From Heterotrichella gracilis (taxonomy: Eukaryota > Sar > Xanthophyceae > Tribonematales > Xanthonemataceae): a stretch of DNA of 64,000 bases. Positions within the stretch are counted from its first letter, which is position 1; the number at the start of each line of letters is the position of its first letter. Shown one piece after another: positions 872-55,100 of the stretch. The notes under the pieces are model-generated. The model made no database searches and had not been told where the DNA came from. It worked only from the letters and a program-made list of their open reading frames with translations. The translations under genes were made by a program, and so were the position numbers. The stretch lies in assembly GCA_032358255.1 (NCBI GenBank), contig JAULBX010004777.1:1-64000 (forward strand). The letters run 5' to 3'.

Positions 872-3800
872 ATGGATAGCTTGCGAACAGTAGCTGCTGT
901 CAGTACCTCCGGCAGCTCAGTGCTGGGCTCTCACAGACGGTTCAGCCTTGGTACCACGCTGCCAACTCTGCCTGCCAGGCTTCGCAGCCGTCGGTCGTGT
1001 CGAAAGCAGACCCGCAGCGCACTGGGTGTCGAGGGGATAGCCAGCCTCGCCAGCGTCGACCTGTCGGTGGTGCAAAGCATAGTGCAGCACAGCCCACTGG
1101 CATATGAGCCTGTAGTCCTCCCCTGCTCTTCATACAACTGTGGGGACCTCATATACAGGAGGTACGCCAAGCCAAACCTAGCCACGCCAACACATGCCAC
1201 GTTTTGTGGTGTGGGTATTCACAACGTCAGGCTACCCTCTCAAAAGCTGCACACTTTGACACACCGTCTAGCCCAAAAGTCCTATTCATTCTGCAAGCAC
1301 AGGTTCCATGAAGTGCCCACGAGCTAGGGATAGCTTATATGCTTAGTCCTTTTGTTCCCTATCCACCCAATGCACCTTCTTGACTCCAGGGCGTTTGGCA
1401 CAGGCTTCTGCTCCCAAAGCCTTGTGACCGTGCACTCGCACGTGTTTGTGGGAAAACCCACTTGCCGAAAGCCTGGCACACTGCATGCCCACAAAGCCTT
1501 GTACCCCTGCCGGATGTGTGCGTGCATGGCCTGCGTGGTGGCCTGCACACTCTGTTTTGTCTGCTGCACACACACTGCTCCTCCCTGTCTGCAGCACGCT
1601 TGACCCCAACCTGAGGAAGGAGCTGCGGGGCCTGACCCTGGAAGGAGCGGTGCTGCTAGGCCTGCTGTTCACATACCTCAATGCAACGCCAGGTGGGCAG
1701 AACAGCGATACATGCGACTGACCACAGCTTTGCCTGCAGCTCAGTATTATTTTAATCTGCAGAGCCTGCGGTTGAGGTGAATTGTAGATGTGTAGAGCCT
1801 TTGCTGCCTAATATGCAGTGCGTATCCCCACCCACTGTTTGTGCCGGTTGAATTTCATAGCATGTCGAGGTTTACTGAAGGTATTACTGACCGCAGGTGT
1901 GTTGCGGGGTGCGTGGGACTGGTACGTGGCAGCACCCGCACAGAGGATGAGTGCCAAGGTGTACACAAAGGTAACAGCGCAACCTCCAGGCAGCACCACG
2001 ACCCTAAACACCAACACCAACCCTAAACCCTAATTACAGAGTTTAAGTGGCAAGGTGTACACAAAGGTAACAGCTCAACCTTGTGGCAGCACCACGGCCT
2101 CCTTAGCTGGTGTACCGTATTGCATCCTGTGCACCGCCTGCTGCCGGATTTAACCCTTGGGAACTGCAACACGTGGTGCACAGTATACTAGGCAGCACTA
2201 CATTGTTCCACCTGTTGTCCAGTTCTGCCCCGTGCTGACCCTTTCTCGCGGCTGCAGGACGATGTCATCCTTGGCAAGAAGATCGCCACGGGTGGCTTTG
2301 GTACCGTGTTCCGTGGGCAGTTGGTGGAGCCAGACACTGGAGAGGCGCGGGATGTGATCGTGAAGAAGGTACAACCCGGTAGTTAGGGCCTAGCGCTAGG
2401 GTTTTGGGGCAGCTCATTGAGAGTGACACTGGGGAGGTGCGGGATGTGATTTGACTCTACGGCTAGGGATTGGGTGTAGGGTTTAGGGCTTTGGTACGGG
2501 GGTTTGTGGCCAGCTTGGTGGAGCCTGACGCTGGGGCGACGTGGGAAGTGATTGTGGTTAATCTACAGACGGTGCAGCTAGTTGTGGATGGAGGTGCATG
2601 GCGAGCTCCTGTTGCCCAACACATGCTCCTCATTCACATCATAATTTGTGCCAACGTTGACGCCTATACACACCACTCCTCACCCCACGCCCTGCAACTC
2701 CCCCTCGCTCCACCCCTCCACCGAGCTTGTTGCCTCTATGCACCCTCACCCTATCCCCCTCCACCAACCAGGCCACCGAGTTTGGCGAGGCGGAGGTGTG
2801 GATGAACGAGCGCATGTCCCGCTCCTCGCCCAACACCTGCGCCACCTTCATCACAGCATTCACCGAGAGCGACCGGGTGGGGGGACCCCTGTGGCTGGTG
2901 TGGCAGTACGAGGGGGATTCCACACTGGCGGATGCCATGGCCAAGAAGGAGTTCCCCTACAATTTGGAGCGGGTGCTGCTTGGTGGGGATTTGGACATCC
3001 CCAAGGGTGCGGTACGCAAGCTTATCACTGTGCGGGAGGTGCTTCGCCAGCTGCTGGCGGGGCTCAAGGACTGCCACAAGACAGGTGAGGGGGTGCGGGG
3101 TTCACAGATCAGGAGTTTATATGATATCAAATGGCAGATAATCTGAGATAATAGTAATGCATTTGTTCTGGTGGTATTGAGTTCTACGGATTTAAGTAGA
3201 GAAAGGTCTAGACCCCAAGGGGCAGATTAAAGTAATGAATGGTGGCGCAGCTGATGTTTTCTTTTGTGTATCTGTTTGTAAGCTGCGCCGCCATGGAGGT
3301 GAAATTGGGTCTGTGGAAAGCAACAGGGAGCTGCCACGTGCAAGACCTGCACCCTACCATGTTGGGCTGCACTGCCGAGTGGAAGCGTAGCCCGCGGAGG
3401 GATGCACACAGCTTGGTTTGCTGACACACACCAGCGCCACAGCAACCATAACCCTGCAATTCCAAGTTGTATACCCTTAACCCCAAACCTCCACCCTCTC
3501 ATCCCCAGGCAGTGTGCACCGTTACCTCAGCCACAGAACTGCATCATTGCCGACCGCCCAAGACCCCAAACCCTCAAATATTAGCCCCTACCGCCCCCAG
3601 GCACCATTCCCTGCACCACCACACACCACTTTTGTTCGCCCGCCTGAAAACCCTAAACCCTATACTTTGTATCCCCAGGCATCGTGCACCGCGACCTCAA
3701 GCCCCAGAACTGCATCATCTCAGACCTGGACCGCCGCCTGAAGCTCATCGACCTGGGGGCAGCAGCTGACCTGCGCACGGGGATCAACTATGTGCCTCGG

Positions 3801-6718
3801 GAGTTCCTGCTGGACCCTCGCTACGCGCCCCCCCAGATGTACATCATGTCCACGCAGACGCCAAAGTAGGTGGCGGGGAGTTGGGGGGGAGGGAGGAAAA
3901 GGGATGTTGAATGCGTGGTGGATAGGTGGTGGTGGAGATTATAGGCCTGTTTTCTGGGTTTGCTGTTACGGGTTGCGGGGAGTTGTTGCAGTGCCCAGGA
4001 GGTTTCTGCTGGGCCAGTGCTACGCGCCTCCCCAAATGTACATCATGTCCACGTAGACGCCAAAGTAGGTGGTCTGGTGGGGTTGGGAGGCGGGACAGGA
4101 AAAGGAATGGAGGGGGGCAGAGGGGGTAATGCATGGTGGAGTGGGGTTGCTGGGTGGGGGGTTACTGCATGGTAGCGCCGGGGTGTAAAGGGGCAACCCT
4201 AGGAGTTTTCCGGCGGTGTGTTTTTTGCCAGTGCAGATTGGCTCCCTCGCCTGCTTTTCTAGATTATGGCTTCATTTTGCTTCATTTGATGCCCTTTAAG
4301 CCCACTGGCATTACCCACGGGGTTTTAACTTACCAGGCATGTTGTTATGCTCGCCGCATGGCATCCAGCATTCATGCCACAATGGCGTGATCTGCGAGCT
4401 GGTCAAGTGCACATGCCCCTGGCACATCTACTCCTACGCCCTGCCTCTCAACCCCCGCCCCCTGTCTCACCCCTTCCCTTCCCCCAGGGCGCCCCCCGCC
4501 CCAGTGGCCGCCCTGCTGTCGCCCATCCTGTGGTTCCTCAACAAGCCCGATCGCTTCGACATGTACTCCTGCGGCCTGGTGCTCATGCAGATGGCATTCG
4601 CACCGCTAAGGTCGGACAATGCGCTCATCAACTTCAACAAGTGAGTGCACCATAAACCCTTGACCTTGGAACTGGAGACCCTAAAACCTGAACCGGTGGG
4701 CTCAAATCCAATAGGGTACTCGTGGGGCCTGGTGTGCATCCAGATGGCGTTTGTACTATGGAGGTTGGACAAACGCGCTCATCAACTTCAACAAATGAGT
4801 GCACCCTATAAAAAACCCTAAATCGGTGGACCATCAACCCTAAAGCAGGCCTTTGCACCGCTGAGGTCTGACAACGCGCTCACCAACTTCAGTGCATTGT
4901 CACCATGGGACCCGCCCCATGCCCTGCGCAGGCAGTAGGTCGGCAAACCCTATAACCTGACCTGTGTTCCTCCCCTGTGCAGGCAGCTTGGTGAGAAGTA
5001 CAACTGGGACGTGAACCAGTGGCGCGCTGCCTTTGAGAGTAACCGTGCATACCAGGAGGGGTTCCAGATGCTGGACCTGGACAACGGAGCGGGCTGGGAC
5101 CTGCTGACAGAGGTAGGGCTAGGGTTGAGGGCCTAGGGTTTAGGGTTTTAAGACCTAGACAACAGGGCTGGGCTGGGACTTTCTGACTCAGTAAGGGGTA
5201 TTGGCTCCCAGAGGGTCTAGGGTTTAGGGTATCATGGTGGGCTTCCAGATGCTGGACATGGACAATGGGGCGGGCTGGGACCTGCTGACAGCGGTAGGGT
5301 TTTGATGCCTTAAAGGTCGAGCGTATAGGCTCGGGGGTAAGGACTTGACAACAGTTCTGGTCTAAGACAGGCAAGGAATTAGGGTGGGTCATTCTATATG
5401 GTTACGGTTATCAGTCCCTGCCTTGGGAATGGTACAATCAGTGGGATCAGCAGGTGCCAGGACAAGGTAATCTGATCTGGCTGTATCAAAGACTGGACAT
5501 CAGGCACCTACACTAATGCCCCACCCCCCCTTCCCCGCAGCTGGTCCAATACTACCCCGAGGACCGCCTCTCCGTGGCCTCCGCCCTGGCGCACCCCTGG
5601 TTTGGCGCCACCATGTCGTTTGACTCGCTGGCGGCCTCGCTGGCCACCGTGGGCCGCGCCATCGACCGCTCCATGGACGGCATCATGGAGGACAAGTGGC
5701 TTCAGGAGTCCATCTCGCGCAATGGCACCGCTAAGGATGGGGGCTTCACCGAGGCGCAGCTGTACAAGGAGCTGGGCATGACGGAGGAGGCGCCAAAGGT
5801 AGGGAGATAAGTATAGATGTTTTTGAAGTATACTGGTTGGGTTTTTCTGTTTAGCACCAAGGTGGAGCTGAACAAGGAGCTGGGTACGACGGAGGAGGCG
5901 CCCAAAAGGGTGCTAGGGAACTGGTTAGGTCTTTTAGGTTTTGGGTAGAAGGTTGACCGAGGCGCAGCTGTACAAGGAGCTGGACGTGACGGAGGAGGCG
6001 CCCAAGGTGGGGGAATAGGACAAGGATTTTCTAGGGTTTGGGTAGGGGGTTCACTAAGGCGCAGCTGTACAAGGAGCTGGGCATGACGGAGGAGGCGCCC
6101 AAGGTGGGGACATAAGAAAAGGGTGTTTAGGGTTTGGGTAGATGGTTGACCGAGGCGCAGCTTTACAAGGAGCTGGCATGACGGAGGAGGCACACATGGC
6201 GGGGTAATAAAAATGCCTGCTCAAATGCTGTGCGCTCCAACCCTCGACCCTAAGATTCATCCATTAAACCATTTGCATCATGCTGGTCATGTCGCCTGCT
6301 GGGACCGTCGCTTGGCGGAAATCATCTGAACCCTACCCACAAACCCTATACCCTAACCCGCGGGTGCCTCCTGCAGATCATGTTGCGTGCCGGGACCATC
6401 GCCTGGTGGGAGTCCCGACAGGCGGAGATGGCTGCTAAGGTCCAGAGCCGCCAGCTGGACAAATTCTCGCGCAAGGTGAACGTCGGACTCATCAAGCTGG
6501 GGAGGAAAGCAGCGCAGTCCATTCGCGGTGGCGGGCAAAAGCAAAATGGGAATGGAAACGGGAAGGTAGCGGCCCCAGTCAAGGGGCGGAGTGTGGGCAG
6601 GGACAACGGGAATGGGGCGGTGAGCAAGGACAGGGGGGGAAATGGGAATGGGAATGGGAATGGCAAGGCGGCCAAGCGCGGCATACCTGCCTTGTTCAAC
6701 ACTAGGCTGTGGTTCTGA
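872..6718 (+). CDS. STT7: STT7/STN7-type thylakoid serine/threonine protein kinase
   Basis: Ten exons: 872-1161, 1595-1692, 1897-1970, 2258-2368, 2772-3084, 3679-3865, 4488-4640, 4983-5112, 5541-5798, 6377-6718; 651 aa, all phases fit. STT7/STN7 is the redox-controlled kinase that phosphorylates LHCII for state transitions. The N-terminus is basic and Ser/Thr-rich like a plastid transit peptide. Next comes [14 protein letters not shown], whose two Cys (about 85 and 90) have the spacing of the regulatory lumenal pair in STT7/STN7. A single membrane span follows ([14 protein letters not shown]). The kinase domain shows [24 protein letters not shown] (DLG instead of DFG, as in this family) and [11 protein letters not shown]. 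The tail has [14 protein letters not shown], a STN7 signature, then an Asn/Gly-rich low-complexity stretch. STN8 is the main alternative, but the Cys pair and tail favour STN7. The introns carry many partial exon copies. Confidence 0.95.
2407..2560. repeat. Two degraded copies of STT7 exon 4 3' end
   Basis: Intron 4 has one copy at about 2407-2456 and a longer one at about 2490-2560. Both resemble the exon stretch 2321-2368 (sharing GTGCGGGATGTGAT or a close variant). TAGGGTTTAGGG-type words sit between them. Inferred to be local duplications of the exon-intron junction. Confidence 0.75.
3505..3570. repeat. Acceptor-side copy of STT7 exon 6 start
   Basis: The stretch CCCCAGGCAGTGTGCACCG and what follows mirrors the true acceptor and the HRDLKPQN-coding start at 3673-3744. 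The catalytic HRD coding has decayed (GTTACC in place of GCGACC). CCCTAAACCC words stand just before the true exon at about 3650-3660. The copy is non-functional as an exon. Confidence 0.7.
3990..4075. repeat. Donor-side copy of STT7 exon 6 end
   Basis: Near-duplicate of 3796-3875, including the 5' splice site (CCAAAGTAGGTGG) and the following G-rich intron stretch, so the duplicated unit is about 200 bp. In the copy the codon after ATGTCCACG is TAG instead of CAG, so it could not replace the real exon end. Confidence 0.85.
4706..4892. repeat. Two copies of STT7 exon 7 end
   Basis: The first copy (about 4706-4800) matches 4561-4655 almost throughout, but its donor reads AACAAATGAGTG where the real one is AACAAGTGAGTG, so the GT is lost. 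A shorter second copy lies at about 4848-4892. CCCTAAA-type words (about 4805-4845) separate the two. Confidence 0.85.
5144..5300. repeat. Two copies of STT7 exon 8 end
   Basis: A short copy at about 5144-5190 and a fuller one at about 5234-5300 match the exon end 5060-5118. The second retains a GGTAGGG donor. Runs of TAGGGTTTAGGG precede both (about 5115-5145 and 5219-5232). Confidence 0.85.
5856..6200. repeat. Four-copy array of STT7 exon 9 end
   Basis: The end of exon 9 (GAGGCGCAGCTGTACAAGGA through GGCGCCAAAG and the donor) recurs four times, at about 5860-5915, 5956-6010, 6050-6112 and 6148-6200. Units are spaced roughly 90-100 bp apart with TTAGGGTTTGGGTAG-type spacers. The middle copies keep a GT after the CCAAG. 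This is the most elaborate echo array in the window. Confidence 0.9.
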
Positions 6719-9012: not shown

Positions 9013-12000
9013 ATGGGGCAGGCAAACACGCAGAAGGTTGCCATCGCCGCAGGAGTTGCAGCAACAGCCACGCTGGGCCTGTACCTCTACTCCAGGAAGC
9101 GCAGATCGGCACCCATCAAGGAGGGCCCTTACCCCCCAGAATCCCTCCCTGCTGGGGCCTATGATGTGGTTATTGTTGGCGCCGGTCCGTCTGGGAGCAC
9201 GGCGGGCTATTACCTGGCGAAAGGCGGGGCCAAGGTGGTACTTCTAGACAAGGAGAAGTTCCCCAGGGACAAGTACTGTGGCGATGCCGTGTGCACCCCA
9301 GCCCTGAACATCCTGACCGAGATGGGCGTGATGCAAGTGCTGCGGGAGAACAACGAGGCCCACGACGCTGACTCGGGAGGCTTCGTGAGCCCAAGTGGCC
9401 TGTGCTACATAGGTAATAGCAACGAACCCTTGCCAGCCTTGCATTCCTTAACTGGCACCAATGTGTTCTGCTCTGCTGCATCCAACAACCACCACGCAAG
9501 GAAGACAAGTCAGGAAGCAGTAACAATACTGCTGTACTAATGGTTGGTTGCTGGCTTTATTTGCAGGTGCATCCGAGCAGAAGCTGGGCCAGGCAGCAGC
9601 GTGTGCTGTGAAGCGCATCAACCTGGACCTGCGGATCGTGCAGGCGGCCAAGAAGCAGGGCGCAGAGCTCCTGGAGGAGTTTGAGGTTGGCCAGGACGTG
9701 ACCTTTGACAAGGCCGCGGGGCTATGGACGGTCAAGTCAGCCACGGTATGTGCCTTGGACCCAAAACCTTTGCACCTGCATTCGTGGTTGCGGCTGAGTG
9801 TTGCGTCTCACAACCTCATGGCTGAGAAATACACCAGGATCTGGCTGTGTTGCAACTGGAAGGCTGCTTTTGACCACAAGCGCTCCGTTTGTTTACTGGG
9901 CATTGATCTATTTAGGGCAAGGAGGTGAAGGGGAGGGTGCTGGTGTGCGCTGATGGCGCCACCTCAAGGCTGGCCACCCACCTTGGCTACTGCACTGAGC
10001 CGCCCAAGGGTGTGTGCAGCAGGGCCTTCATCGAGGGGGGCACCCACAACACCAACTTTGATGGTAGGTGCCCGCGTTGCACCCCCGCACCTGCAGGGGA
10101 TCATGTACCATGTGCATCTTCTGCCATGCCTCCACTTGCCTTGAGAGGTGTCTTTGTTCATTTCTGCACCGTATTGGTTCTTTCCACTTGAATATGACAA
10201 AGATGTATCACACTGCAAAGCCAATTTGTCCGCTCAATTCTGCGACATCTCCCCTCAGGCGTGTGCTTCTACCAGCGAGAGTCCCTCCCCGGCTACAGCG
10301 CCATCTTCAAGCACCCGAATGACGAGCTCAACTTCTGCTACTACCTCATCCCGTGCGGCAAGGAAGGGATGTGTGGCGATGTCAAGGTAGGGTTTAGGGT
10401 TTAGGGCAACACCCTCGTGCAAAGCAGCCACGGCCCCGTTGGCTGATAGTAAAACAACAGATCAATCTGTATAGTACGACGCAGCCTGTTCCTGAAGTGG
10501 CGCACTGGAAAAGGAGGCAGCTGGATGCCTTTCATATCTACTAGGCCATAAGGTGGAACAACATCCACCACATGCAAGCAAGCCAAGCTGCATTGCATGC
10601 GCACCCACATCAGCACCGGCTCACCATCCAAAGCATGCACCGCCTGCCAGGCCATAAAGTGCAACGGCATCCACATGCATGCAAGGGCAGCTGCATTGCA
10701 TGCGCACCCACATCAGCACTGGCTCTCCAGCCAACGCATGCATGCACCACCGTTCTGTTCTCTACTGCATGCCCCTTACAGTGGAATGGAAACCCACATG
10801 CCAGCAAAGCACATCTGCCTGGCTCTTTATTTACCCATGCACTGCCACCCACCCACCATCCACCACCACTCCTGCAGGAGTCGGACCTGAGGTGGCTGCA
10901 CGACGAGGCCCTGGCCAACGACCAGGCCATAGGTGGATTAAAATCCGCATGCATGCACCACAGCTGCATTGCATGGGCACCCACGTCACCACAGGCCCAC
11001 CATCCACTCGTGCACCACCCACCCACACACCGCCCACCGCCACCCCTGCAGGAGTCTGACCTGAGGCGCCTGCACGACAACGCGCTGGCCAACGACCCCT
11101 TCATCAGCAAGGCGGTGGGACCCAATGCCAAGATCGAGCGCATGAAGGCCGCCTCGCTGCGCCTGGGCAGCCAGGGCTTGACCACCAGCTACGACGACCA
11201 CATCGTGATTGTGGGGGACGCTGCCGGGCACATCGACCCGCTCACCGGCGAGGGGATCCACACGGCCATCATGGTGCGCAGGAGAATTAAATATTCTCAT
11301 GTATTTACATATGAATCACAACATTATCGGGAATGCCAGGACAGATCTGTGCGGCGCATGCTTGTGCAAGGCTGACTGAAAATCTGGCGATACTTGCTGG
11401 GACGCATGTAGTTGTAACTATTATGCTAATAAAATGACAGGAATTAATGGGAAGTTAAATATTCATGTCCCCATTGGCCATCCGGGACCCTTCCCTTATA
11501 TGTGCACCCACCCAGCATGCCAAAACAGTCCTTGATGCATCCATCTCATGGCCTAAATGCCTGCATTATTTTGCTCAACCTCATGACGTTGGGCTTCTCG
11601 TCCACAATAGATTTGCAAATCATGGCAGTTGTTTTTACTGCCTGCCTTCGCACCCTCAGGGCGGCAAGTGCGCAGCTGAGGTCCTGCTTGAGGCGCGCAG
11701 CAAGGGCAACTTCAGCAAGGAGGCGACAGCGCACTACCACGCTGCGTGGTTCAAGGCATTCGGTCACGACTTTGCACTGGTAAGCTTGACAGGTGGCAGC
11801 ACGCGATGTCTGTTGGAGGGCGGTTGCAGCGGGGATCGGGATTAGTTCAAACATGTGGAGGAAGGGTTGTTGGTTATGGAGGGTAGGCAGGGGGATGGGC
11901 GCCTGAGCCAAATATTGGGGGTATGAGCTTGCCAAGATGGACATCGGTGATGTACAGGATGGGGTACACGCCATGCAGTTAACGCTACTCCCACCCCGCG

Positions 12001-12555
12001 CTGGTCACACTGTGCGGATCACGCCTGGATGGCTCTGCCTTGAGCGGCCACACCTGACCAATACTGATCGTCAGCAACCTCACGCCCCGCTTCCCCCCCT
12101 TGGCAGTCCAAGAAGGGCGCTGAGCTGATGCACAAATACCCATTCCTCCGCCTAGTAAAACCCCAAACCCTGCACACCAACCTCACCCCCACTCTCCCCT
12201 TTTGCAGTCCAAGAATGGTGCTGAGCTGATGTACAAGTACCCCATCCTGTGCAGTAATAAAACCCTAAACCCTGCACACCAACCTCACCCCCACCCTTTC
12301 CCCCTTTCGCAGTCCAAGAAGGGCGCCGAGCTGATGTACAAGTACCCCATCCTGCTGGACGCCACCGCCAACGAGATGCAGCGCAAGGGCGACACCATGA
12401 TGGCCAAGTGGGCCGAGGTCATGACCAACATGCGGCCCAAGACCTACTTCCTCAGGCCCGACGTGGCCATCCCCCTGGGCCTGGCGGTGGTGCGCGAGTT
12501 CTGGAACCAGAAGGTCATGAGGCGGCCCGACCTGTACGCAGCGGGTGGCTTCTAG
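9013..12555 (+). CDS. Geranylgeranyl-reductase-family FAD oxidoreductase, membrane-anchored
   Basis: Seven exons: 9013-9412, 9567-9745, 9916-10063, 10259-10386, 11052-11273, 11660-11779, 12313-12555; 479 aa, phases fit. The N-terminus has one hydrophobic span (about residues 9-26) followed by SRKRR, suggesting a tail-out membrane anchor rather than a transit peptide. The FAD-binding Rossmann motif GAGPSG is at 56-61, followed by FPRDKYCGD at about 83-91, which fits the PxxKxCG(D/G) motif of this family. The second FAD motif GDAAGHIDPLTGEGIH begins near residue 340. The family reduces prenyl double bonds (chlorophyll, tocopherol or archaeal lipid side chains). The sequence differs from classical plastid CHLP, so the substrate is unknown. 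Introns 4 and 6 hold partial exon copies and intron 5 holds a truncated LINE. Confidence 0.85.
10588..10932. repeat. Tandem ~100-bp repeats and acceptor-side copy of exon 5
   Basis: A unit containing TGCATTGCATGCGCACCCAC recurs at about 10588 and 10692, with a variant at about 10968. At 10869-10932 stands a copy of the exon 5 acceptor and first 55 coding bases (compare 11044-11104). It is bounded by AG and by ATAGGTGG, so it looks like a cassette exon, but 55 nt would shift the frame. The real exon is 11052-11273. Confidence 0.75.
11303..11454 (+). mobile_element. 5'-truncated LINE copy with target-site duplication
   Basis: Lies in intron 5 of the flavoprotein gene. It contains CQDRSVRRMLVQ then a TGA, matching the LINE end at the start of the window, and a short 3' tail with AATAAA at about 11429. 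It is flanked by TTAAATATTCTCATGT (11287-11302) and TTAAATATTCATGT (11455-11468), which look like an imperfect target-site duplication. This is as expected for target-primed insertion of a short 3' fragment. Confidence 0.6.
12100..12255. repeat. Two acceptor-side copies of flavoprotein exon 7
   Basis: Copies at about 12103-12150 and 12204-12250 begin with GCAGTCCAAGAA, like the true acceptor at 12311. They continue through the codons for GAELM(H/Y)KYP. Both keep AG. CCCTAAACCCTGCACACC-type stretches join the units (about 12160 and 12262). The downstream copy is taken as real because it alone continues into the conserved C-terminus. Confidence 0.85.
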
Positions 12556-27826: not shown

Positions 27827-29650
27827 ATGAACGTTGGCACCATTGGTACAACGAGGAACAGAACAGACATCTTCATCAAGTACCGGAACCAAGCACGCGG
27901 CATCTCTAGGCACTTGAACAGGCACAGCGCCAACACAGATGCTGACAGGTGTGCCCCCTCACCGTGACCCCTGCGCTACCCTTAGCCAGCATACTTGGCT
28001 GCCACATGCACCCTCTTGGAACCACAGCTAGCTGCAGGGTGCATTGCAAGTGACATCCACCCAGCCACAACACCAACAACAGGAAGCATATGGGAGTGGC
28101 ATGCGTGGCATGGGTGTTACACACTGTGGTCAAGCAATGGCAGCAAACACTGCTCACCAAACTTTGCTTGCAGGGGCACGCACCGGCTCCTGGATGCAGC
28201 CATTGCAAGCTCAGTTGAGAATGGGCAGCTGGACATGGGGGCAGCGGGTGTGGCTGCCGCCCTCCCCCCTCAGTATGTCGACTTCAAGGAGATCATCCGA
28301 ACAGAAATGTTCTCCATCCGGCAGAAGATGGCGGAGCTGCAGAAGGTTCACGGCAAGGCCACCCTCACAACCTTTGATGACGTCAACCCCGATGAGGTGG
28401 AGGTGGAGGTCCTGACGCAGGAAATCACAAAACTGTTCAGGCGCTGTGAGGCCAAGCTGTCCCAGTTTGGGCAGGGCGCCAGGCAAAGTGAAGCGGATGA
28501 AAAGGTGCGCCGTTAATTTTAAACCCTAAACCCTGGGTGTGCCATGCAAGTGAAACGGATGAAAAGGCGCGCCTTACATGCTAAGCCCTGGGTGTGCCAG
28601 GCAAAGTGAAGCGGATGAAAGGTGCGCCATTGGATATCGCGATTAATGCGCATGGCAAGATTCCAGGGCTTGCGTGCATTGCTGCCATGCTGTACGTGGC
28701 ATCGGCTTCATTGGGTTTCTCCCCGTCCAGGTGAAGCAAAACGTGCAGCGCACCCTGGCGCTGGAGCTTCAAAAACTGTCAGTCCAGTTCAGAAAGCAAC
28801 AGAAAACCTACTTGAACCGCTTGCGGGGCAAGGATGGTGCTGGGAGTTCTGGATTTGCTGCTTTGCAAGACAGCCCTGCCCGGCTGGATGATGAGTATGA
28901 CCCAACTTTCACGCAAGGGCAGGTAAGGATTTATGCCCCTACATGCCCGCACAGGCTCTTTTTTATGGCAATGCAAGTCTCTGCTGGATGCAAAGTATGC
29001 ATGATCAGGACAGCAATCGCATGAGGCATGTCCTGATTGTGCAATTCAGGTGATGCGAGTGGACGCCATGGAGGATTTGGCGATGGAGAGGGACAAGGAA
29101 GTGAGGAAGATCTTGGAGTCCATCAATGATCTAGCGCAGATCATGAAGGACCTGAGTGTGCTGGTGATCGAGCAGGGAACCATATTGGACAGGATCGACT
29201 ACAACATGGAACAGGTGGGTGACTACACGCACAAATCTATGTTGATCACCTGCAGAAAAAACAATTGTTACTTACCAATGCAGAGAAGGGTTGTCCAGCC
29301 GGTTATCATTTTATTGCATCTGCATTGCATGAACAATATACGCACCAGTACGTTTCAGGGGTCGTGGGTTTACAGCAGACTCTGCATGAATGGAGAAAGG
29401 TGGAACAAATTGCCTGTAAACAATTGCTTCTCGTATACTTTGTCGCATTCGCATCATTTGCCCTGCGTGGCTCACACATGACCACTGTGCGCCGCAGGTC
29501 GCCTCCAAAGTGGACGAAGGCGTGAAGCAACTGGTCAAAGCTGAGAAGACCCAGAAGCAAAGCAGATTGATACTGTGCATCATGTGCTTGGTCGTTGCTG
29601 TCATCATGATGCTGATGATTGTTACCCTGAAATTCGTTCTAAAACTATAG
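27827..29650 (+). CDS. SYP4: SYP4/syntaxin-16-type Qa-SNARE (trans-Golgi network)
   Basis: Five exons: about 27827-27948, 28174-28504, 28731-28922, 29050-29214, 29498-29650; 320 aa, the usual SYP4 length. The start is set by the conserved TTRNRTDIFIKYRNQ, which matches the ATRNRT...KYRN N-terminus of plant SYP41-43. PPQYVDF leads into the N-terminal helical (Habc) region, then VKQNVQRTLALELQKLS. The Qa SNARE motif spans exon 4 and early exon 5 (EINDLAQIMKDLS-like, then VIEQGTILDRIDYN with the zero-layer Gln). It ends in a single C-terminal membrane anchor (LCIMCLVVAVIMMLMIV). The protein drives fusion at the TGN and vacuolar traffic in plants. Exon 2's end is echoed twice in intron 2. Confidence 0.95.
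28515..28632. repeat. Two copies of SYP4 exon 2 end
   Basis: AAGTGAAGCGGATGAAAAGG (true end near 28487-28506) recurs as GCAAGTGAAACGGATGAAAA at about 28546-28572 and CAAAGTGAAGCGGATGAAAG at about 28602-28623. Both are followed by GGCGCGCC or GGTGCGCC like the true donor. AAACCCTAAACCCTGGGTG joins the units. The second copy keeps the GT donor. Confidence 0.85.
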
Positions 29651-29976: not shown

Positions 29977-29978
<2 letters not shown>

Positions 29979-30411: not shown

Positions 30412-30478
30412 CCTAGCCTAGGAACAACGTAGCGAACTACAGGTTGTGTAGTGCCTGGCCCAGGGACCCTAGGCTAGG
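30412..30478. repeat. Short inverted repeat
   Basis: CCTAGCCTAGG at 30412-30422 and its reverse complement CCTAGGCTAGG at 30468-30478 flank about 45 bases. A second inner pair (GTTCGCT near 30377 and AGCGAAC at 30431) adds to the hairpin potential. It could be part of a small non-autonomous element; nothing else identifies it. Confidence 0.45.
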
Positions 30479-34350: not shown

Positions 34351-34428
<78 letters not shown>

Positions 34429-43310: not shown

Positions 43311-44424
43311 TCACTTCTTCCCCCGCCCCTTCCCCTTGGCCTCTCCGGCTGCCTTGCGCTTGGGTGCAGGGGCGCCGCCCCGGCCCTTGCCTGCAAAACA
43401 CCAATGGCGGTGAGCAAATGACGACAGCAGCACCTGGACAAACGCTGGTCCAACGCATGCGCAACTTCCCTATTTATCCGTTGATGTCATACATAACTTG
43501 GGTGAATTGCTGAAACGCATGTAAGTAGATTTTTTCTACACATAAAGTAAGACAATCGTATGATTGAATCTTTTGCTGGAAGTAAAACGACACACAAACT
43601 TCAGTATGATGACTGAATTTATCTCATTGATTTGCTAATAATAATGATAAATAGAAGTGAATGTTAAACTGTCTCCATGGTGCAACTTCACCCCAATCCC
43701 ACCACCCGCCCACCGCCCGCCACCCCGCGCGCACCTTTCCCCGCGTTTGCCGGCACCACTTCCGACTCCACCTCCTCGTTCTCCCACACGTCAAACGCCT
43801 CCAGCTTGTCCTCAGGGAAGTCCTCAACCAGGAACAGCGTGAAGGCGATGCCAGCAGCCACCTGGCGCACCTTGAGCCCCTCCAGGGCCAGGCACTTGTC
43901 GGGGTTGGCGCTGGACTTCTTGCCAGAGGGGCCGTACCCCAGCTCCCCGTTTTGCGCTTGGCCCCTGCGCCGGCGGGCACGTTGGTCAGCCCACATCCCT
44001 TCCTCTCAACATCAACCCATCCTCCACATGCACGCATGATGCACCACCCAGTCAGCCCTTGGTACCAGCCGCCCCCACCATACATACACACACACCAGGG
44101 GACTGTGAGGCGCTGCGCCTGGTAGTGCGCTGCACCACCAATAGCAATGATCCTTGTCAATAGTCCAGCTCGTCAGGGTTCAATGGAAGAGTTGGGATCC
44201 TAGCCGCCCCCACCCTCCACAACAACGCTACAGTTGCAGCCGCTAGCACCACACATCTTGCATCACATGGTGCGTGTGATGCACAATCCCTCCGCCTGGT
44301 ATTGCGCCGCCACCGCGAAGTGGTACACGCCCCATACACTGCCGGTGGCCCTGGTTCATGAGAGCCTTGAGCGCCGGCCTTGGGATATTAGCCACCACCA
44401 CCACCATCACCACCACCATCACCA

Positions 44425-44456
<32 letters not shown>

Positions 44457-47400
44457 ACCACACCACCGCCACCACCACCACCCGCACACGCACCATGTGA
44501 TGCACGACCTGTCCGACTGGTACTCGGCTGCCACCGCAAAGTGGTAGGCGCCGCACACAATGTCGTGGATGGTCCAGCCCGACAGCTCCATGTATGCCTT
44601 GGGGTACATGGTGTTGTCCCCCGAGGTCTTCAGCTTACCCCACGCATACGCCTGCGCGGCGGTGGCGATGCAGAAGGACGAGGTGGCGCCGCATGCGATC
44701 TGCACCACACGTGTCCATTAAGGAGGCTGATCGTTTAAGTGCATCACAAAGTAACGCCATTTACAGTGCCTACAAGAGGGGCGGGTCGATCTGAGGGCCA
44801 ATCAGTTGAAAATGCATCAACAGGAATGGCTGGTGATAGCGATGCACGGCCCAGCCAGCACACACACTCAGCTGCTGAGGGTTTAAATGATAGTTTATGG
44901 TGTAGGGTTGAGGGTCCGCACCGGTCCCGATGGCTCCGCCATGATGCGGGGCCCAGCCAGCACGCTCAGTTGCTTGGGCTTGAACTCATCCTGCTGGACG
45001 TTGTGGCCCAGGCGCCCATACCCGCCATTGCCTGTGAAGGAGGGGGGCGCACATGCGGTGTGAGCAGTTCGCCTGTACTGTATTGGTGTAGATCTACTGA
45101 CCCTTCTTCACAGGGGCTGCTGTGCACAGGTCAAAAGCTGGAGGAGGGAGCGGCAGGCGCGAGACCATCTCGAGTCAACAGACACCCTGCTCCACCCAAA
45201 GGAGTTGCCTAAATCGTACATACCTAACCTTAAAATGGACCAAACGCTGCAGGTTCCCAGGCCCATGTTATAACTGCCATCCATGGGCATGGGCCACACA
45301 TGTGAACGGATGGTGTGATTCGGCACTTGCAACTACATGGCTCAATCAGCACCAGGCAGTTTTTGAAACAGCTCAACTTTCTGTTCCTTTCCCCCCCTCC
45401 CTCCCCATGCTCACCCCATGTGTACGCTCCCCCCTTGTCATCCAGCGCCAGCGAGTGGTTGTGTCCGCATGCCACCTTGACTATGGTGACGTCAGCCAAA
45501 GTGTTGATCATGGTGGGTACCGGTTGGGGCATGTACTTGATCTGGACAGAGGCTGCACAGAGGGGGAGGTTAGGGTTTCGAGTTTAGGGTTTTGGGTTTC
45601 TACCAGTGTGGGCACAGGCTGGGGCATGTACTTGATCTGGACAGAGGCTGCACAGAGGGGGTGTAAGAGTTTAGCATTTAAGATGTTACGGGTGTTTATC
45701 AACGTGGGGGCGCATGCGGGCCTTGTACTCATTATGGACCGAGGTTGCACAGGCAGGGTACTGGCATGCCTAAAATGTTTCTAGTTATTTGCATGCATTT
45801 CAGCAGAACAGCCAGATTGGCAGAAAAAGCTTGTGGTACTTAATGAGCATGCTGATGGAGGGGTAAATGCTTAAACTGCGCATGCGTTTAATCCGTTACC
45901 GTGAGCGTGTGAGTAGTTATATTAGTCAATTTCTGTAATCAACAATGTGATTTCATGACACAGCTTCCTGTAATCAACGCTGCGGGTTGATAACTGCAGT
46001 TGCCTGTGCCCAACAATGCAGCGTGGCGCCCACTCACAGTCCTTTGCATTGTACTCGTGGTCGGTGCCGTGGCCCAGCTGCCCATACTGCGGCGACCCAG
46101 CCGAGAACAGCTTGCCATCGCACAGCCACATGGTGAAGTCCACGCCACATGCAACCTGGCTGCAGCTGCTCACCAGCGCTTGCACGGGGGAGGTGAACAT
46201 CTCTGGCACAAGGGGAAGGAAGGGGGTTGAGTGATACATGGGCACTGGCCCGGGTTGTAATGCGGTGTTTAGGGTTGAACGTGTGGGGGTGAGAGTTGAG
46301 GGGCTTGCACGGAGGTGCACATGTATGGTACAAGGGGAGCGAGGGGGGAGCGGGTGGGATGGTGGCCCGCAGTTGGTGAGCCAAGCTCCCAAACCGTAAA
46401 CCCTAGGCCCAAGGGCTTTGTTGTGGGTGTCTGATAAGCACATAATATTGGTTTTGCTGGTGTCTCATAAATTCCTAATTTGAATCTACACAATTTTTGC
46501 TCGTGTGCCATGTGTTACACAGCTCACCTTCATACTTGTCCTTGCTCTTGATCGAGCCTGTTCCGCACTGGCCCTGCAACAGGCAACAGCAGGTCAGAAA
46601 TGCTTCCAGGCGTGCGCTGGCTGATACACCTGACGCCGCTATGCTTGCCTTGGTGTGTGATGGTCACACAAAAACGTCAAGCAATGTATTGAGGATCGCA
46701 ATGGAATGAGTTCCACAGGACTCCATGGAAAATTGTGTAGAAAATCATTTCCGGCCACATAATCTTACATTTAAATTGGTGCCAAACACCCAGGAGTCGC
46801 CTGTGTCTGTGATGACCACTGAGTGCCCCTTCCCAGCAGCCCCTGCAAGCATGGGCAACCAGGTTCAGAGGCCCCATATGCGGTGCAGCGCTGGACCGAG
46901 TTGCAGCCTGGTGGGTGGGGGCTGTTGTAATATGCATATGCTGAAGCGCACATGACAGACTGGGTATGTAGTGCGCAACCAAGCTGGCTGGGGCATATGG
47001 TTTGATATGTGCGTACCTGCCACAATGGTCTTCCCCGCCAGTCCTTTGACAACCGTTGGCATGTTCTTTTGCGCAAAGTCGCCTTGTCCCAGTTGCCCTT
47101 TCTGTCAGTGGGAAACACACTTGCTCTTTGAACAAGGCAGCAACCGCCAGGTTTGAAGCTTTTGCTCCACATTCTCAACAGTTGGCTTGTGCAGCATCAA
47201 CTTCAAAAATAGCAGCATATTGCAGGGCCAATAATATGCAGTCAAGGAAGTGCACTTGCACGTGGTGTAAGCTGTCTTTACGTACCTCATTCCTGCCAAA
47301 TGTATAGCACCTGCCTGCATCATCACCCAGGATGATGTGGCATGCAGCGCTGCCCGATGCCACAAAAGTCACCTTGACATCCTGCAGGGTGGATGCACTG

Positions 47401-48467: not shown

Positions 48468-51400
48468 CTAGGCTGGCTTGGGGTGCCTTTCGGACTGTTG
48501 CTCCCTCACCACATGCCCCCGCACCCACGCCCGCACGATGTTGCGGTCGTCCCCCAAATTCACAAATTTCTGGAATTTGTCCTCCAGGGTGTCCTGCTCC
48601 CACACATCAAATGTGGCCCCGCTGCCCAGGTCAACCTGCAGGGCATCAAATTCCCTCTCCTGCTGCAATGTGCCTATCGTATCCCCCAGCCCGAGCGCCA
48701 CCGCGCCACCAACAGTGGCGAGGTAGAACGCGTGCTGCATGACAACAGATATCCATGTCACTGACAAACGCAAGCGACATGCATTGCAGCAGCACAGCCG
48801 GACCAGCAGTTGGTCTTGCACAAGCGGCGCTACGCAGGCCATCCTTGCATGGTGTACAGCGATTGAAGACAAGTTTCATTGACATTATATGCAATCCTTC
48901 AGGTTTATTCTGAACAAGACTGTGCCAGGATGCCGGATGTGCGCACCTTGCACAAGGCATATAGGCCAGCCTGCTGAATGTGGCGGTATTATTTGTATTA
49001 AACACGTGTGATCAACCTACTTTGTAATCGATAACGTCCTCCCCCTTGCCCTCTGCCGCATGCTCTGCCTGCTCTGCCAGGCCTCCCTGGGATTGCACCC
49101 TGGTGATGTGGTGCGAGCGGGAGGCCAGCACCGCGTTGCGCTGGGCATTGAGCATGGAGGGGGAGTACCCCCCCGCCACATCTGTGCCCAGCCCTATTTT
49201 CACCCCGTGGCGGCGCACGTGCTGGACCCTGGGTGAGGGGGAATGGAGGGTCAGGTGTGTGGGGAGGTGCCACAAGGCCTACCTGGACAGGCGCACGGGC
49301 GACTGGTAGGTATCAAAGATAGCCACTCTCACCTTCTGATTTAACCCCTTTTCATATTTTAATCTCATTATCAATATTAGTTAAACGCTGCTTTTATGAC
49401 CACTGCATTGCATTGCATGCAGCCCGCACCTGAAGTTTGTGTCTGCAAAGTAGAAGTTGCTGAGTGGGCAGTGCGCCACCGCGGTCCCTCGTGAGGCAAG
49501 CAGCGCCAGCTCGGGGTCGTTGAGAAGCACAGAGTGGGCCATCACAGTCTGCACGTGGGAGGTTGATGTGGGTTCCTATCTGAAGGCAATCATGGCTATA
49601 CTCATTACTGGTTTATTACAATTGTGAGGCAAGCAGTGACAGCTCCGGGTGGTTGAGCAGGACAGAGTGAGCCATCACAGTCTGCGGGGGAAGAATGGGA
49701 GGGAGTCGTTGTGACGCAAGATTGGGTGGGCAAGGGGTGCAAGCAATGACTACTACTAGATACCCTAGCCAATTACCCTGACAGATACCCTGCCTCAGTA
49801 ACAGGGCAGTATTTAATTGCAGTGATGTCACACTTTGCCCTCCTTTCTAATGCCCTCTCTTCCAATTCGCCCTCTCTTCTAATGCGATCCTGCCAAGACC
49901 TTCAACCATATTATCCCCCACCTTATCCGTCAGCAGGCCCGCTGCATCAAAGAGGGCTGCGTCCCGCCCCCCCTCCGCGCCATGCACCTCCCGACAGAAC
50001 ATCATGACATCATAGCTCTCGCTGAGGTGGCTGGTGATGTGGCACCCGGTCTCGCGTGCCAGCTGGCCAAGCCCAGTCAGCAGCTCAGGAGAGCAAGTGG
50101 GGATGAACCTGGCAAAGCATGTTCTTATTAAAATTGAATAATTATATATTGAATTGACATACATGGGCATGACAAGTGCATCCTGGTGGCACGGGGTGGT
50201 CTGGGGTGACAGTGGGGATCTGGGGTGGCATTGTGCTGGCAAGGGGCGCATAATATTCATTACAAACCTGGGGGTGATGACGGGGTGCACCAGTGGCCAG
50301 TCCATGCCCCGCACAAATTTGATAAAATTCTCCGTATTCTCCAGGGCCTCCTGTGTGGTTTCGCAGTAGAAATCCGGGCTGTTGCGGTCCATGGACACCT
50401 GTCAATGCAGAGGGTGTTTGATTTGGTTTTCAGAGGAAATTATTAGCACCATGGCTGATGTGGTCCAGGCTAGATGGCCTGACATGGTGGTGTGGTGGGG
50501 GCGTAACAGGCTGTGGTGGCACGGGGTGTGGCAATTCCGGAGTTGAAAAGGGCGACGAAATGCCCTCCTCCATGCAACCCACATGGATCCCACACACCCC
50601 ATCCAACACTTCATAAGACCCTGCTGCCATCCCTGCCACAGCCCACCTTTCCCACGTATGCGCGCTGCCCCGCGTCCTTCAGTAGCTGCGCAAACAGCTC
50701 ACAGGGCGCGTTGTGCAGTGTGGCAAAGTAGAGAGCGGTGGTGGTGCCATGCGCCAACAGGCGCGAGATGAGCTTTGTGTACAGGTGGCGGGCTGTGGCC
50801 AGGTCTTGCATGCCCGCCTCGCTGGGGAAGGTGTAGTGGTTGAGCCACTCCAGCAGGGGCCTGTCCGTGGCGGTCCCGGTGAAGGCATACTGGGATGGGG
50901 AGAGGAGGGGAGGAAGGTATGGTGAGGGGCATTGGTTTAGGGTTTTGTTGGAGTGAGGTGACAAGGTATGCTGAGCGGTAGGTTATCGTTCAAATTCTGG
51001 CATGTGGTTGCCTAGCGTCATTCGTAGGGTTCAGCACGTTGCCCTGCTTGTCCAGCGGTGTGGCCGCCCTGAACCCTAACCCCTAAACCCTTCTCTGAGT
51101 TCCATACCTGTGGTGCGTGTATGTGGGTGTCGACGAAGCCGGGGATGAGCACGTGGTCGGGCTGCAAACGAGGGGAGCGTGGTTTGGTGGCAGAAGCTCG
51201 CTAAACATTGCCAAGATTGGTTCAGGTGGATATGCATGCATATAGTGCCAAACCACAACAGGCCCGGTGCGTGCTTGAAGGCCGATGTTCTTCCCCTGCA
51301 TGGCTCAAGCGCAGAATAAGTGCGCCGCATGTCGTGTCGTTTGGGCTGACCCACAGCAACTCGTTGTGGCTTGTGTACGTTGAGCACGAAGGCCTAGCTA

Positions 51401-52102: not shown

Positions 52103-55100
52103 ATGGCAGCTGGAGCGGGGGTGCAGAAGGTGAGGGCCAAAGGGGCACCAGCTGCTGATGCTGTGCCGCAAGCTGTTGATTTCGACGGTATGAAGTTGGC
52201 CAGTCTATGTGTCTCTTTCACGTAGGGTCAATTTCACGATTAAAGTGGAGGTTGCGCATGTCTGATGCATGCATGCTTGAGGGCCACGTGGGCGTCAGCC
52301 GCTGATGCTGTGCCCCAATCTGCTTAATTTGATATATGCAGCTCTCAGTATATATGTATCCTTCAACTAGGAGCAAGGTCTCGACTAAAGGGCAATGCAT
52401 GCATGCATTTTGCAATGCATTGATATGCATGCATGAGCCTGGTTCCCCATTTACCTGCCTAAGACCAACCTGAAGTTCAATTTAGGAACTTCGACTCCTA
52501 AATTTGACATATTCTACGACCAACCCAGGTGTTGGATAAGCTGTCAGCAAACATACAGGCAGGGAACTACTATGAAGCCCAGCAAATGTGCAAGACGGTG
52601 TACCACCGCTATCGGGCGCGAAAACTCCTGGAAGACTCTTATCAGCTAGCAGAGGTACCCCCACTCACTACCACGCCATGCTTGATGCACCATCAATTCA
52701 AACCACACGATCTTGCACATGGGTAGATGCCTTCATGCTCCGTTACAATCCTGGGGATATACGTCATGAGCGTGGGTTGGTGATTTCATATCGTGAACCC
52801 GGTGGTTTTGCTTATGGATGTGCATGATCTGAACACCTCTGCTGTACACGTGCTGCTGCATCTGCCCTAGCGTGTTGCTGAGGGTCTGTATGAGCGAGGA
52901 GGAGTCTTTGCTACCAGCTTGTATACCTGGGCGGTGGTTTGAGTCTTTGCTGCACAGTGCTGTGTACCTTAACACCTAATAGGGTTGTGTGGGGTTGTGC
53001 AGGGTAGCGCAGTGCTCCAGCTGCGCGGCGGTCAGGTCAACTGTGGGCTGGAGATGGGCAAGCTGCTGGTAGAGGTGCGAAACCCTAAACCCCAAACCCT
53101 AAACCCTGAACCCTAACTTGGTGATGGGCAAGCTGCTGGTAGAGGTGTGTGGGGCGGGAAGCGCAGTTGAACTGCGAAACCAATAGCCAATACCTCCCAA
53201 TGAATTGGCCGTACATCACTCTTCTTGAGCCCAATGCAGCAGTCCATCTAGGCATGCTTAGGTCAGGCAGGGTGGCAGGGGAAAACCGGCGCGTGTGGTT
53301 ACGTATATATCGCCGCCTCCAAGGTAGTTTCACGAGTTCTTCTTCCGCGACGCCCAGGCATGTGACACTGATGGTATCAGCCGCACCATTTAAATAGATA
53401 ATCCGTTTTCAGTTATTTGATCTTTAATTGGGCCCCTTCCCATCGCCCGACATGCATGCATATGACACCAATGGAGGGCCAGCTACACTACTACAATTAA
53501 TTGATGTTTTGTTTTCTGGGCATTATTGCATTGCTCCCATCTCCTTCCTTGGCATGCAGGCCTACGATACTGATGGGGTACCCGCCACAACCACCAGCCT
53601 GCACCGGGTGTTCTCGGTGCTGGAGGCCATGCAGGGGTGCCAAGGGGGGGAAACCAGTGGGCTCGAGCCTGTTGATGCGGGGAGGGAGCTGGTGGGGGCC
53701 ACGGTAAAGTGGGCAAAGAAGTGCGCGCTACCCCAACATCCTCACCCCCTCTACATGACGCACTCCTGTTGTGCCAAACGCAATCGAAAGGCATTGTGAA
53801 ATTGGGTATCCGCGGGGTCCCACTTGCGCCGCCTGCTACCCTGGCCTGCAAAAGGGTTGCAAGCCAGTTACGTTGAAACTCCATGACCTTGAAAACTGAA
53901 CACTAAACCCAACAGGGGTCCAATATTGCAGAGGTAGGCCCATGATGGCAATCATTTCCCTTTCGTACAAACCCTTTGCGAGCGAAAGCAAACCCTAAAT
54001 TATTAACCCTAAACCCTAGGCCCCATGGCCGCCTCAAGACCCTGACTCCTGCACGCCCTGCCTTTCCAGGACCGCCACCCGCTCCGACCTGCGCATGGTG
54101 CATGACAAGGCAGCAGGTTTTGTGTGGGCCGTGCGCAAGTTGGAGGGCCTGGGTGAGGCCATGCCGCACCTGGTCAGAGGGGGAGACGCGCAGCTGTTTG
54201 GCCAAGGTGGGTGGCGATGTGGTGTCGATGGAGGTGGCGGGGTGGGGTTGTTGCTTTCTGTCCAACCCCCTTCATCATAAAGCGGACAGTTGCATGTATA
54301 TGGAAAGGATGGACATGTTCCATTATTATTTAGTCATTTCTGATGGACTTCTGATTTTTGAAGTCCAGTGTGCAACTTGCATTTCCAATAAATGGCGAGA
54401 TTTTAGTACATATGAAATCAGCATCCCGTCATCAGCATGCCCTGTTCAGTCCTGCTTATAATGCCAGCCACCTTGCAGCTGCTGGCCAGGCCTCAGGAGC
54501 CAAAAATGACACTCTGTCCCTTCCACGTCAAATCAAAGATACAGAGACTATGCAAAGCATATTTGGATAAGTAACCAAAATTTCTGTGTTTCAGTCCTGG
54601 CGGCATGCACCGAGGACAGCCCTGGGCAGGAAGACCATTTCCTAACGGGCGCCACCCTGCAGGGCACCGCCCTAGGAAAACAAACTCCCTCTCCTCCCCA
54701 ATTGCCTGCATCAGAGACCATTTTCCACACAACTTTTTAACCATACAACAGAATTGAGCATGGTTTCCAACCCCCTGTTGCAGTCCTGGCGGCATGCACC
54801 GAGACCAGCGCTGGGGAGGAAGACCTTTTCCTAACGCGCGCCACCCTGCAGCTCCTGGGCACCACCCCGCCAGGGGAGCAGAGCCGGCAGATCATGTACT
54901 GCGGGGAGGTGCTCAATGGCTACCAGAAGGCCAAGGGGGCGGGGCTGGGGGACGCGCCGCTTACCCACTTTGTGGTGTTCCTGCTTCAGGTGCGCAGGGG
55001 AAAACCCTAGTAAAGGGCTTTGGAGGGGATGCGGAGAAATTTTAGGGCAGGTTTCATAAGGCTACAAGGGCTTTGAAGGGGTTATAACTTACAAGCCTTG

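Follow-up and report, generated by a model that had tools for sequence, protein, structure and literature searches.

In the xanthophycean alga Heterotrichella gracilis, about one in eight sampled introns (54 of 417) carries, beside one of its exons, a decayed direct copy of that exon's end and of the adjoining splice junction. We describe these copies, which we call exon echoes, in a stretch of 64,000 nucleotides (positions 1 to 64,000 of contig JAULBX010004777.1, assembly GCA_032358255.1; hereafter the window) and in further sequence from the same assembly. The duplications that left them are tandem and direct, have a preferred size, are enriched at exon-intron junctions and have arisen recurrently; their seams often hold telomere-like sequence on the side of the echo, and the intron copies decay in a neutral manner. 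With modest confidence, we attribute them to recurrent repair of staggered breaks within genes, often with telomeric filler, where duplications straddling a junction would survive, since splicing removes the extra exon end.

The window forms the beginning of a contig of 132,897 bases (C50) in a genome of 68.5 Mb and 903 contigs. To sample the genome more widely, we drew 20 stretches of 10 kb, each on a different contig, together with the 10 kb next to the window and three extra pieces of contig C1, and later added four further stretches and one chosen piece of 4.5 kb. A 254-kb set (the window, the adjoining 10 kb and 18 stretches) was used for the controls on 351 introns, the exact 7-mer seam counts, clustering and the density correlation. 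A 294-kb set (the window, the adjoining 10 kb and 22 other 10-kb stretches) was used for the counts on 417 introns, placement, decay, the tolerant seam test, matched windows, the ungapped scan and inverted matches. Excluded from the statistics were the bacterial-looking C1 stretches L007 and L028-L030, stretch L012, which is all N, and L001-L006 and L035. Gene models were predicted from sequence by a simple self-trained gene finder, which learned conventional splice signals (CAG/GT-type donors and TGCAG/G-type acceptors). All ten window proteins, from nine of eleven models (one being split in two), matched Pfam families, as did nine of ten predicted proteins from the other stretches. Families were assigned by Pfam, and solved homologues were found for AP4B, guanine deaminase, RCC2 and STT7. 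Since introns within one gene are not independent, the p values given here are optimistic.

Self-alignment of the window yielded 39 local direct matches within 2 kb (E<=0.01), and the copies of its local direct repeats are offset by about 60-400 bases. Under a stricter cut-off (E<=1e-4), 35 of 40 direct matches but none of four inverted ones lay within 2 kb. As a control, we took the 45 bases at either end of each exon and aligned them to the intron next to that end, at a score threshold of 32. Matches to the exon's own intron were found for 26 of 329 donor ends and 27 of 330 acceptor ends (7.9-8.2%), as against 1 of 3277 and 0 of 3292 mismatched exon-intron pairs (0-0.03%). Reverse-complemented exon ends gave no match to their own intron (0/329 and 0/330), mid-exon segments matched the same intron in 1 of 188 donor and 0 of 190 acceptor cases (0-0.5%), and 4 of 286 donor and 3 of 290 acceptor ends matched the intron at the opposite end of their exon (1.0-1.4%). 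In the larger set, copies in the own intron were found for 31 exon ends on the donor side and 31 on the acceptor side, each out of 392, while none of 5685 mismatched pairs matched. Introns with echoes made up 17 of 99 in the window and its adjoining 10 kb and 37 of 318 elsewhere, which confirms that the phenomenon is real and extends beyond the window.

These results bear out in part a first-pass annotation of the window, which had proposed that introns of at least seven genes (STT7, a flavoprotein, AP4B, SYP4, RCC2, guanine deaminase and GET4) are built from decaying copies of the exon end that they adjoin, and had suggested the comparison of own with mismatched introns that we ran on the sample. 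Copies are present at exon ends in all seven genes that it named, and identities ranging from about 69 to 98% agree with its picture of recurrent local duplication across exon-intron junctions; the absence of a shared introner family, which it had also claimed, follows from the mismatched pairs. Its description of one to four copies of 30-80 exon bases has to be adjusted: the exon part is about 50 bases long (median 45-50; 5-95% range 27-79), between the copied and the active junction there are 50 to about 250 bases, and in STT7 an array runs to about four copies. That echoes lengthen introns is upheld, the median being 379 bases with and 247 without an echo (p=3e-7). The wording that introns are built from them is too strong, as detectable duplication spans account for 12.8% of intron bases.

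Merging of blastn self-alignments gave 109 direct loci in 294 kb, with offsets of 63-266 bases and one of 651. The 108 loci with offsets below 300 were compared with 400 random placements. Junction classes together comprised 80 of the 108 loci against 36.1 expected: in 55 a junction was straddled with one copy in exon (20.7 expected; no placement as high), and in 25 both copies were called exon (15.4 expected). All other classes fell short of expectation, namely intergenic loci (4 vs 23.4; no placement as low), partly intergenic loci (0 vs 3.8), intron-only loci (17 vs 25.8), exon-only loci (3 vs 7.4) and exon-versus-intron pairs with no junction inside (4 vs 11.6). The same distribution was seen among the 27 loci of at least 90% identity, with 20 in the two junction classes (11 + 9) against 7.3 expected (4.4 + 2.9) and the remainder intron-only (4 vs 7.0), intergenic (1 vs 5.9), exon-only (1 vs 2.1) or exon-versus-intron (1 vs 3.8). 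Loci were clustered, the variance per stretch being 13.3 for a mean of 3.3 (26 pieces, nearly all of 10 kb). The duplications are therefore associated with genes, and a special targeting of junctions is possible.

Much of this pattern could in principle reflect ascertainment, if duplications of about 100 bp fell anywhere and those with a copy in an exon stayed visible longer. Since the exon copy is conserved and evolves slowly, junction pairs should remain recognisable for up to about twice as long, at most a doubling of their visible lifetime. Not every kind of contact with an exon is enriched, as the exon-versus-intron pairs show. After doubling of the junction expectation, the excess over intron-only loci is modest (80:17 vs about 72:26), and much of that part is explained; the shortage of intergenic loci holds (80:4 vs about 72:23). 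As the main cause of the pattern, ascertainment thus appears improbable to us. The narrow exon part of the copies (median 45-50) had also raised the idea of a junction-centred unit, but it cannot be told apart from the effect of random units of about 70-100 bp and of detection limits, and we make no claim of that kind.

The sizes of the duplications bear on replication slippage or unequal exchange, which would make tandem copies with no break and no telomerase, the telomere-like stretches then being ordinary intron microsatellites. Offsets in the blastn set peaked at 100-119 and clustered again at 170-219; blastn self-alignment misses short offsets, and TRF shows periods of 21-39. An ungapped scan of offsets 12-300 found 113 loci in 294 kb, of which local shuffling of the sequence left none, and the 100-119 peak was seen again (26 loci; 17 at offsets 12-59). 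By class, 77 loci touched an exon but were not exon-only, 24 were intron-only, seven intergenic and five exon-only, counts that carry no comparison with random placement. The short tandem offsets speak for slippage, as do the over-representation of telomere-like words in introns generally and the near-constant periods of some arrays (104 in L021, 96-108 in STT7), which were probably expanded after a first copy had formed. Against it, the peak is not at short offsets, 22 of the 26 loci at 100-119 touched a junction compared with 4 of the 17 at 12-59, and the telomere-like motif lies at the seams rather than at the outer flanks (see below). We therefore give slippage or exchange a low probability, slightly below that of ascertainment. 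The 22 inverted matches consisted of 12 self-centred palindromes and 10 with more distant centres, with none at 1-1000 bp between centres; direct local copies with no inverted partner in that range, besides the palindromes, are the configuration expected of break-repair duplication.

Runs of TTTAGGG are found at several contig ends; the telomere repeat of Chlamydomonas is TTTTAGGG. The 7-mers at the seams between copies are those of the contig-end repeat, as in interstitial telomeres: exact telomeric 7-mers were present in 24 of 64 seams and in 9 of 64 of either flank. Under a looser criterion (10-mers, up to one mismatch allowed), applied to the 76 of 109 loci with an offset of at most 260, a seam of at least 11 bases and no N, telomere-like seams were found in 16 of 24 donor, 9 of 19 acceptor and 9 of 33 other loci, and telomere-like outer flanks of equal length in 3 of 24, 5 of 19 and 4 of 33. 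The donor and acceptor loci, taken together as junction pairs, give 25 of 43 seams against 8 of 43 outer flanks, with 19 seam-only and two outer-only cases (p=2e-4), and filler at the seam is again what break repair would leave. The donor and acceptor seams also exceed 60-nt windows matched for position in introns free of duplication, of which 23 of 249 near donors and 27 of 249 near acceptors were telomere-like. Moreover, the enrichment is specific to the side of the echo. In the 322 of 417 introns that are at least 170 bases long, donor-echo introns carried telomeric 7-mers on the donor side in 13 of 22 cases (48/273 in the comparison introns; p=4e-5) and on the acceptor side in 7 of 22 (p=0.16), whereas acceptor-echo introns carried them on the acceptor side in 11 of 21 cases (50/273; p=8e-4) and on the donor side in 6 of 21 (p=0.24).

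Alternatively, the telomere-like motifs might predate the duplications, perhaps with a role in splicing, and might, as G-rich and fragile sequence, have led to breaks and so to duplication. Telomeric 7-mers are scarce in exons and abundant in introns (109 kb contained 538 on the G strand and 624 on the C strand, where order-1, -2 and -3 composition predicts about 45, 61 and 92 and about 45, 62 and 137, respectively), and they concentrate at 10-50 bases from splice sites, in the G-rich form downstream of donors and in the C-rich form upstream of acceptors; that duplication-free introns show this placement is what such an origin would predict. A pre-existing motif would, however, be doubled with the unit and so be expected beyond the outer copy as well, and mostly it is not, so that the motif looks like filler added at joining. 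The counts of 8 in 43 outer flanks and of 19 seam-only to two outer-only pairs make a motif-first origin improbable, a shade more so than slippage.

Donor seams are mostly G-rich on the sense strand (11 G only, five C only) and acceptor seams mostly C-rich (six C only, one G only, two both). Since TTTAG before an acceptor would act as a false splice site, selection may set this polarity. Genome-wide, the pattern of telomeric repeat plus donor occurs 64 times and the reversed pattern once. Healing of both ends by telomerase, which predicts G-strand followed by C-strand sequence, was considered and rejected, as the C-G order is the commoner one at gaps of up to 30 bp. Head-on C-then-G telomeric words (AACCCTAGGGTT) are seen at L032 6056-6068, L034 9152-9165 and L021 982-994 and 3800-3813, a close-range order opposite to that expected of telomere-healed ends. 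The excess of telomeric 7-mers is visible across the sampled introns, in the window for example at 2258-6718 and 20131-27004. Across stretches, telomere density seemed to correlate with the number of duplications (rho 0.81; 0.64), a relation that we discarded, as it is inflated because duplications multiply the motif and is not significant in duplication-free introns. On the minus strand of L035, at about 2000-2500, an exon resembling, by eye, an M16 protease precedes about five echoes of its end, each of about 90 bases and several seamed with GGTTAGGGTTTAGGG; the anatomy is the same, though L035 was chosen by the telomere-plus-donor pattern.

The copies decay as expected of sequence released from coding constraint. 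Mismatches between exon and echo amount to 10.6, 7.9 and 20.5% at codon positions 1, 2 and 3, so that the exon is constrained and the echo drifts as a neutral copy. Frameshift indels were found in 27 of 62 echoes and in-frame stops in five of 62. Of 56 echoes, 39 retain the splice dinucleotide (70%), near the neutral expectation of about 76%, and the suggestion of the first-pass annotation that copied sites serve as useful decoys finds no sign of retention here. Copied donors are weaker than active donors (p=0.04), and copied acceptors are not (p=0.80).

An interpretation of the copies as alternative or mutually exclusive exons under selection could draw on those that keep open frames and splice sites, and on the several that were called as exons by the gene finder. 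The neutral-type decay argues against it, as do offsets with no preference for multiples of three (40 of 109) and the solved homologues of AP4B and RCC2, which have one copy. The three repeated AP4B peptides all lie at alignment gaps against solved AP-4 beta (9u9r), among them EELAADMAGE at the echoes at 22794-22923, and the repeated YHFAVAA segment of RCC2 is extra with respect to 5gwn, lying between two aligned blocks. In STT7, the second donor echo (5236-5299) is partly called exon (5249-5293); the alignment of the solved homologue 4ix3 runs through the first copy (5152-5230) and ends soon after, so that it does not discriminate between the copies. For the flavoprotein, a single exon call (10878-11273) spans both copies, of which 10845-10923 is presumably the echo and 11019-11097 its source. 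Homologue comparison thus leaves STT7 and the flavoprotein undecided; as a rule, the echoes appear from the decay and the AP4B and RCC2 homologues to be spliced-out relics, and functional alternative exons, rejected as the general case, seem very improbable. Ordinary exon duplication, in which whole exons are copied with the frame kept, was likewise not what we saw, with about 50 exon-end bases copied and frameshifts as frequent as given above. Introner-like mobile elements or assembly artefacts can be dismissed with near certainty, as no mismatched pair among the 5685 revealed a shared family, copies differ by up to about 30%, and an N gap, although spanned by one L021 array, is touched by one of 109 loci.

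The repair of staggered breaks, which we favour, would proceed as follows. A staggered break inside a gene would leave overlapping single-stranded ends, each of which would be filled in, so that the overlap, commonly of about 60-120 bp, is doubled when the ends are joined. In many events the 3' end would first gain telomeric repeats, which would then remain as filler at the seam. Where the unit straddles a junction, the spliceosome would keep the outer, original site and the extra exon fragment would leave with the intron; the change would be nearly neutral, and the intron copy would then decay. Break repair, put forward in the first-pass annotation as a possible mechanism, fits these data and gains from the telomere-like seams, which that annotation had not noticed. 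That breaks started the process, that telomerase and a CST/Pol alpha-type fill-in carried it out, and that the outcome is neutral in the population are inferences. A bolder version, in which telomerase extension and C-strand fill-in routinely process junction breaks in transcribed genes and form a main engine of intron growth, is at present speculative and rather doubtful.

Several observations weigh against this account. The gene models were predicted without RNA evidence and include some echoes as exons. Part of the junction excess is to be expected, as a selected exon copy stays recognisable for longer, and the short offsets of 12-59, mostly off junctions, indicate that slippage-type events also occur. 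No telomere-like stretch was found at 18 of 43 junction seams. Among 249 introns with no detected duplication or echo, matched windows of 60 bases contained the motif in 23 cases near the donor, 27 near the acceptor and six in the middle, some seams being longer than windows of 60-80 bases, and its presence near these splice sites suggests that some motifs may have another cause. The strand order of telomeric words is 5 G-C to 19 C-G at gaps of up to 30 bp and 47 to 41 within 300 bp. Finally, telomeric density in introns without duplications is not significantly related to the number of duplications across stretches (rho 0.22, p=0.29).

The echoes of the window are listed in Table 1.

Table 1. 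Exon echoes and related copies in the seven genes of the window (positions are those of the window; percentages are identities).
Gene	Position	Strand	Echo	Source or offset	Remarks
STT7	2407..2556	+	two donor-side echoes, 2407-2450 and 2487-2556	exon 2258-2368	matches 2315-2358/2407-2450 and 2294-2362/2487-2556
STT7	3501..3555	+	acceptor echo	exon 3679-3865	83.9%
STT7	3991..4109	+	donor echo	exon end 3865 (source 3792-3906)	79.8%; copied GT kept
STT7	4716..4891	+	two donor echoes, 4716-4808 and 4848-4891	exon ending at 4640	self-alignment
STT7	5152..5299	+	two donor echoes, 5152-5230 and 5236-5299	exon 4983-5112	self-alignment
STT7	5855..6213	+	array of about four echoes	exon end 5747-5798; spacing 96-108	two called exons by the gene finder
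Flavoprotein (FAD-binding)	10845..10923	+	copy, read as acceptor echo	11019-11097	86.1%
Flavoprotein (FAD-binding)	12072..12249	+	two acceptor echoes, 12072-12147 and 12175-12249	exon start 12313; spacing 101-105	self-alignment
AP4B	21756..21857	-	acceptor echo	exon 21481-21707; offset 102	self-alignment
AP4B	22185..22260	-	donor echo	exon 22327-22475	83.1%; repeated RALMYY at alignment gap vs 9u9r
AP4B	22794..22923	-	two donor echoes, 22794-22840 and 22877-22923	exon 22961-23080; spacing 82-83	self-alignment; C-rich telomere-like stretches between copies
AP4B	23150..23222	-	acceptor echo	exon 22961-23080	C-rich telomere-like seam 23110-23149; repeated AIEEEAARTAF at gap vs 9u9r
SYP4-like syntaxin	28541..28631	+	donor echoes (28541-28628; 28596-28631 matches again)	exon 28174-28504	Pfam SNARE
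RCC2	44275..44344	-	donor-side copy	44496-44565 (end of exon 44494-44699)	77.1%; called exon by the gene finder
RCC2	45608..45758	-	acceptor echoes	exon 45415-45552; spacing 95-97	self-alignment
RCC2	46303..46348	-	acceptor echo	exon 46038-46202	79.6%
Guanine deaminase	49624..49685	-	acceptor echo	exon 49430-49548	88.7%; copied AG kept; protein supported by 2uz9 alignment
GET4	53119..53147	+	donor echo	exon 53003-53074	C-rich telomere-like seam 53078-53118; Pfam GET4
GET4	54587..54662	+	acceptor echo	exon 54784-54989	90.8%

The window contains other repeats as well. At 62812-63829, a segment of 367 bases in a model that looks, by eye, leucine-rich-repeat-like is repeated at an offset of 651 with 98.4% identity; this repeat is unlike the echoes in size and is likely to be a separate recent event. 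Short-period tandem arrays (21-39 bp) at 13090-13132, 14897-15019, 21826-21909 and 38119-38170 look unrelated to the echoes of about 100 bp, and one short-period array in the window, of period 24, lies within coding sequence. The genes of the window are plant-like, including the STT7 kinase (best solved relative MsStt7d), AP-4 beta and a receptor with a CAND6/7 N-terminal domain. In L014, a single-exon model at 1-934, by eye resembling triosephosphate isomerase, stands beside heavily interrupted genes, and intronless genes of this kind are a possible control for junction dependence. The parts of contig C1 (894 kb) that were seen (L007, L028-L030) have 33-37% GC, and L007 holds long intronless open reading frames resembling, by eye, Bacteroidetes secretion and TonB-type proteins; this contig is probably an associated bacterium or contamination.

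Introner elements also lengthen or create introns recurrently; they are one shared family sequence, whereas each echo of the alga matches its own exon only. In plants, paired nicks and patch repair have reportedly been studied by Schiml (2016) and by Vaughn and Bennetzen (2014). At Cas9 breaks in mouse and human cells, CST-guided fill-in of 3' overhangs by Pol alpha-primase yields small tandem duplications (PMC8355091). Like the algal duplications, these are direct and tandem, measure tens of bases and arise at staggered breaks through the fill-in machinery of telomeres; telomeric filler or a splice-junction pattern is not mentioned in the parts of that paper considered here. Telomeric repeats have also been found inserted at double-strand breaks, sometimes staggered ones with direct duplication of the flanks (PMC2246262, PMC7215372). 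In the portions of these two reports on which we draw, such flank duplication is given for 6 of 130 rodent, 4 of 25 primate and 3 of 66 horse interstitial telomeric loci. These mammalian loci share with the alga the telomeric filler at a break and the occasional direct duplication, but flank deletion is their commonest single change and their placement looks random, whereas in the alga duplication with filler at exon-intron junctions is common.

A tandem duplication crossing an intron-exon boundary is described for the potato RdRp gene (PMC4974935), where splicing likewise hides the extra sequence. As far as the part of that account used here goes, a new intron was gained in potato, whereas in the alga an existing intron mostly grows, and does so many times in one genome. 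Most algal cases resemble intron growth; a few models could be gains. One such possible gain is seen at L023 5358-5536, where the donor of the first copy and the acceptor of the second copy of a tandem duplication could define an intron. Break repair has itself been proposed as a source of introns (PMC3443670). There, in the text we rely on, filled-in staggered breaks similarly leave direct repeats around inserted bases; the repeats that flank the gained intron are short, whereas those of the alga comprise about 50 or more bases, include the junction and often enclose a telomere-like insert. Moreover, a model for the spread of telo boxes by telomerase at transcription-linked nicks (PMC3022908) predicts telomeric units on free 3' ends in transcribed DNA, as does our proposal; that model concerns mainly the 5' regions of Arabidopsis and rice genes, and in the sections drawn upon here it makes no mention of flank duplication. 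Each ingredient of the algal pattern thus has a precedent. In the open-licence literature we found none for the combination of echoes in about one in eight introns with telomere-like seams, and these seams are the new part.

Intron growth is usually attributed to transposons or drift. In H. gracilis, one small event seems to have recurred at splice junctions and to be preserved there at successive stages of decay, its repair scar still legible. The proposed origin of intron sequence, and that of short interstitial telomeric motifs, would thereby become open to test at many loci of a single organism, and the proposed mechanism predicts which repair mutants should stop the formation of echoes. 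If the bolder version were true, the enzymes of telomere maintenance would be a main engine of intron growth in this alga, in a cell that tolerates exon ends hidden in its introns.

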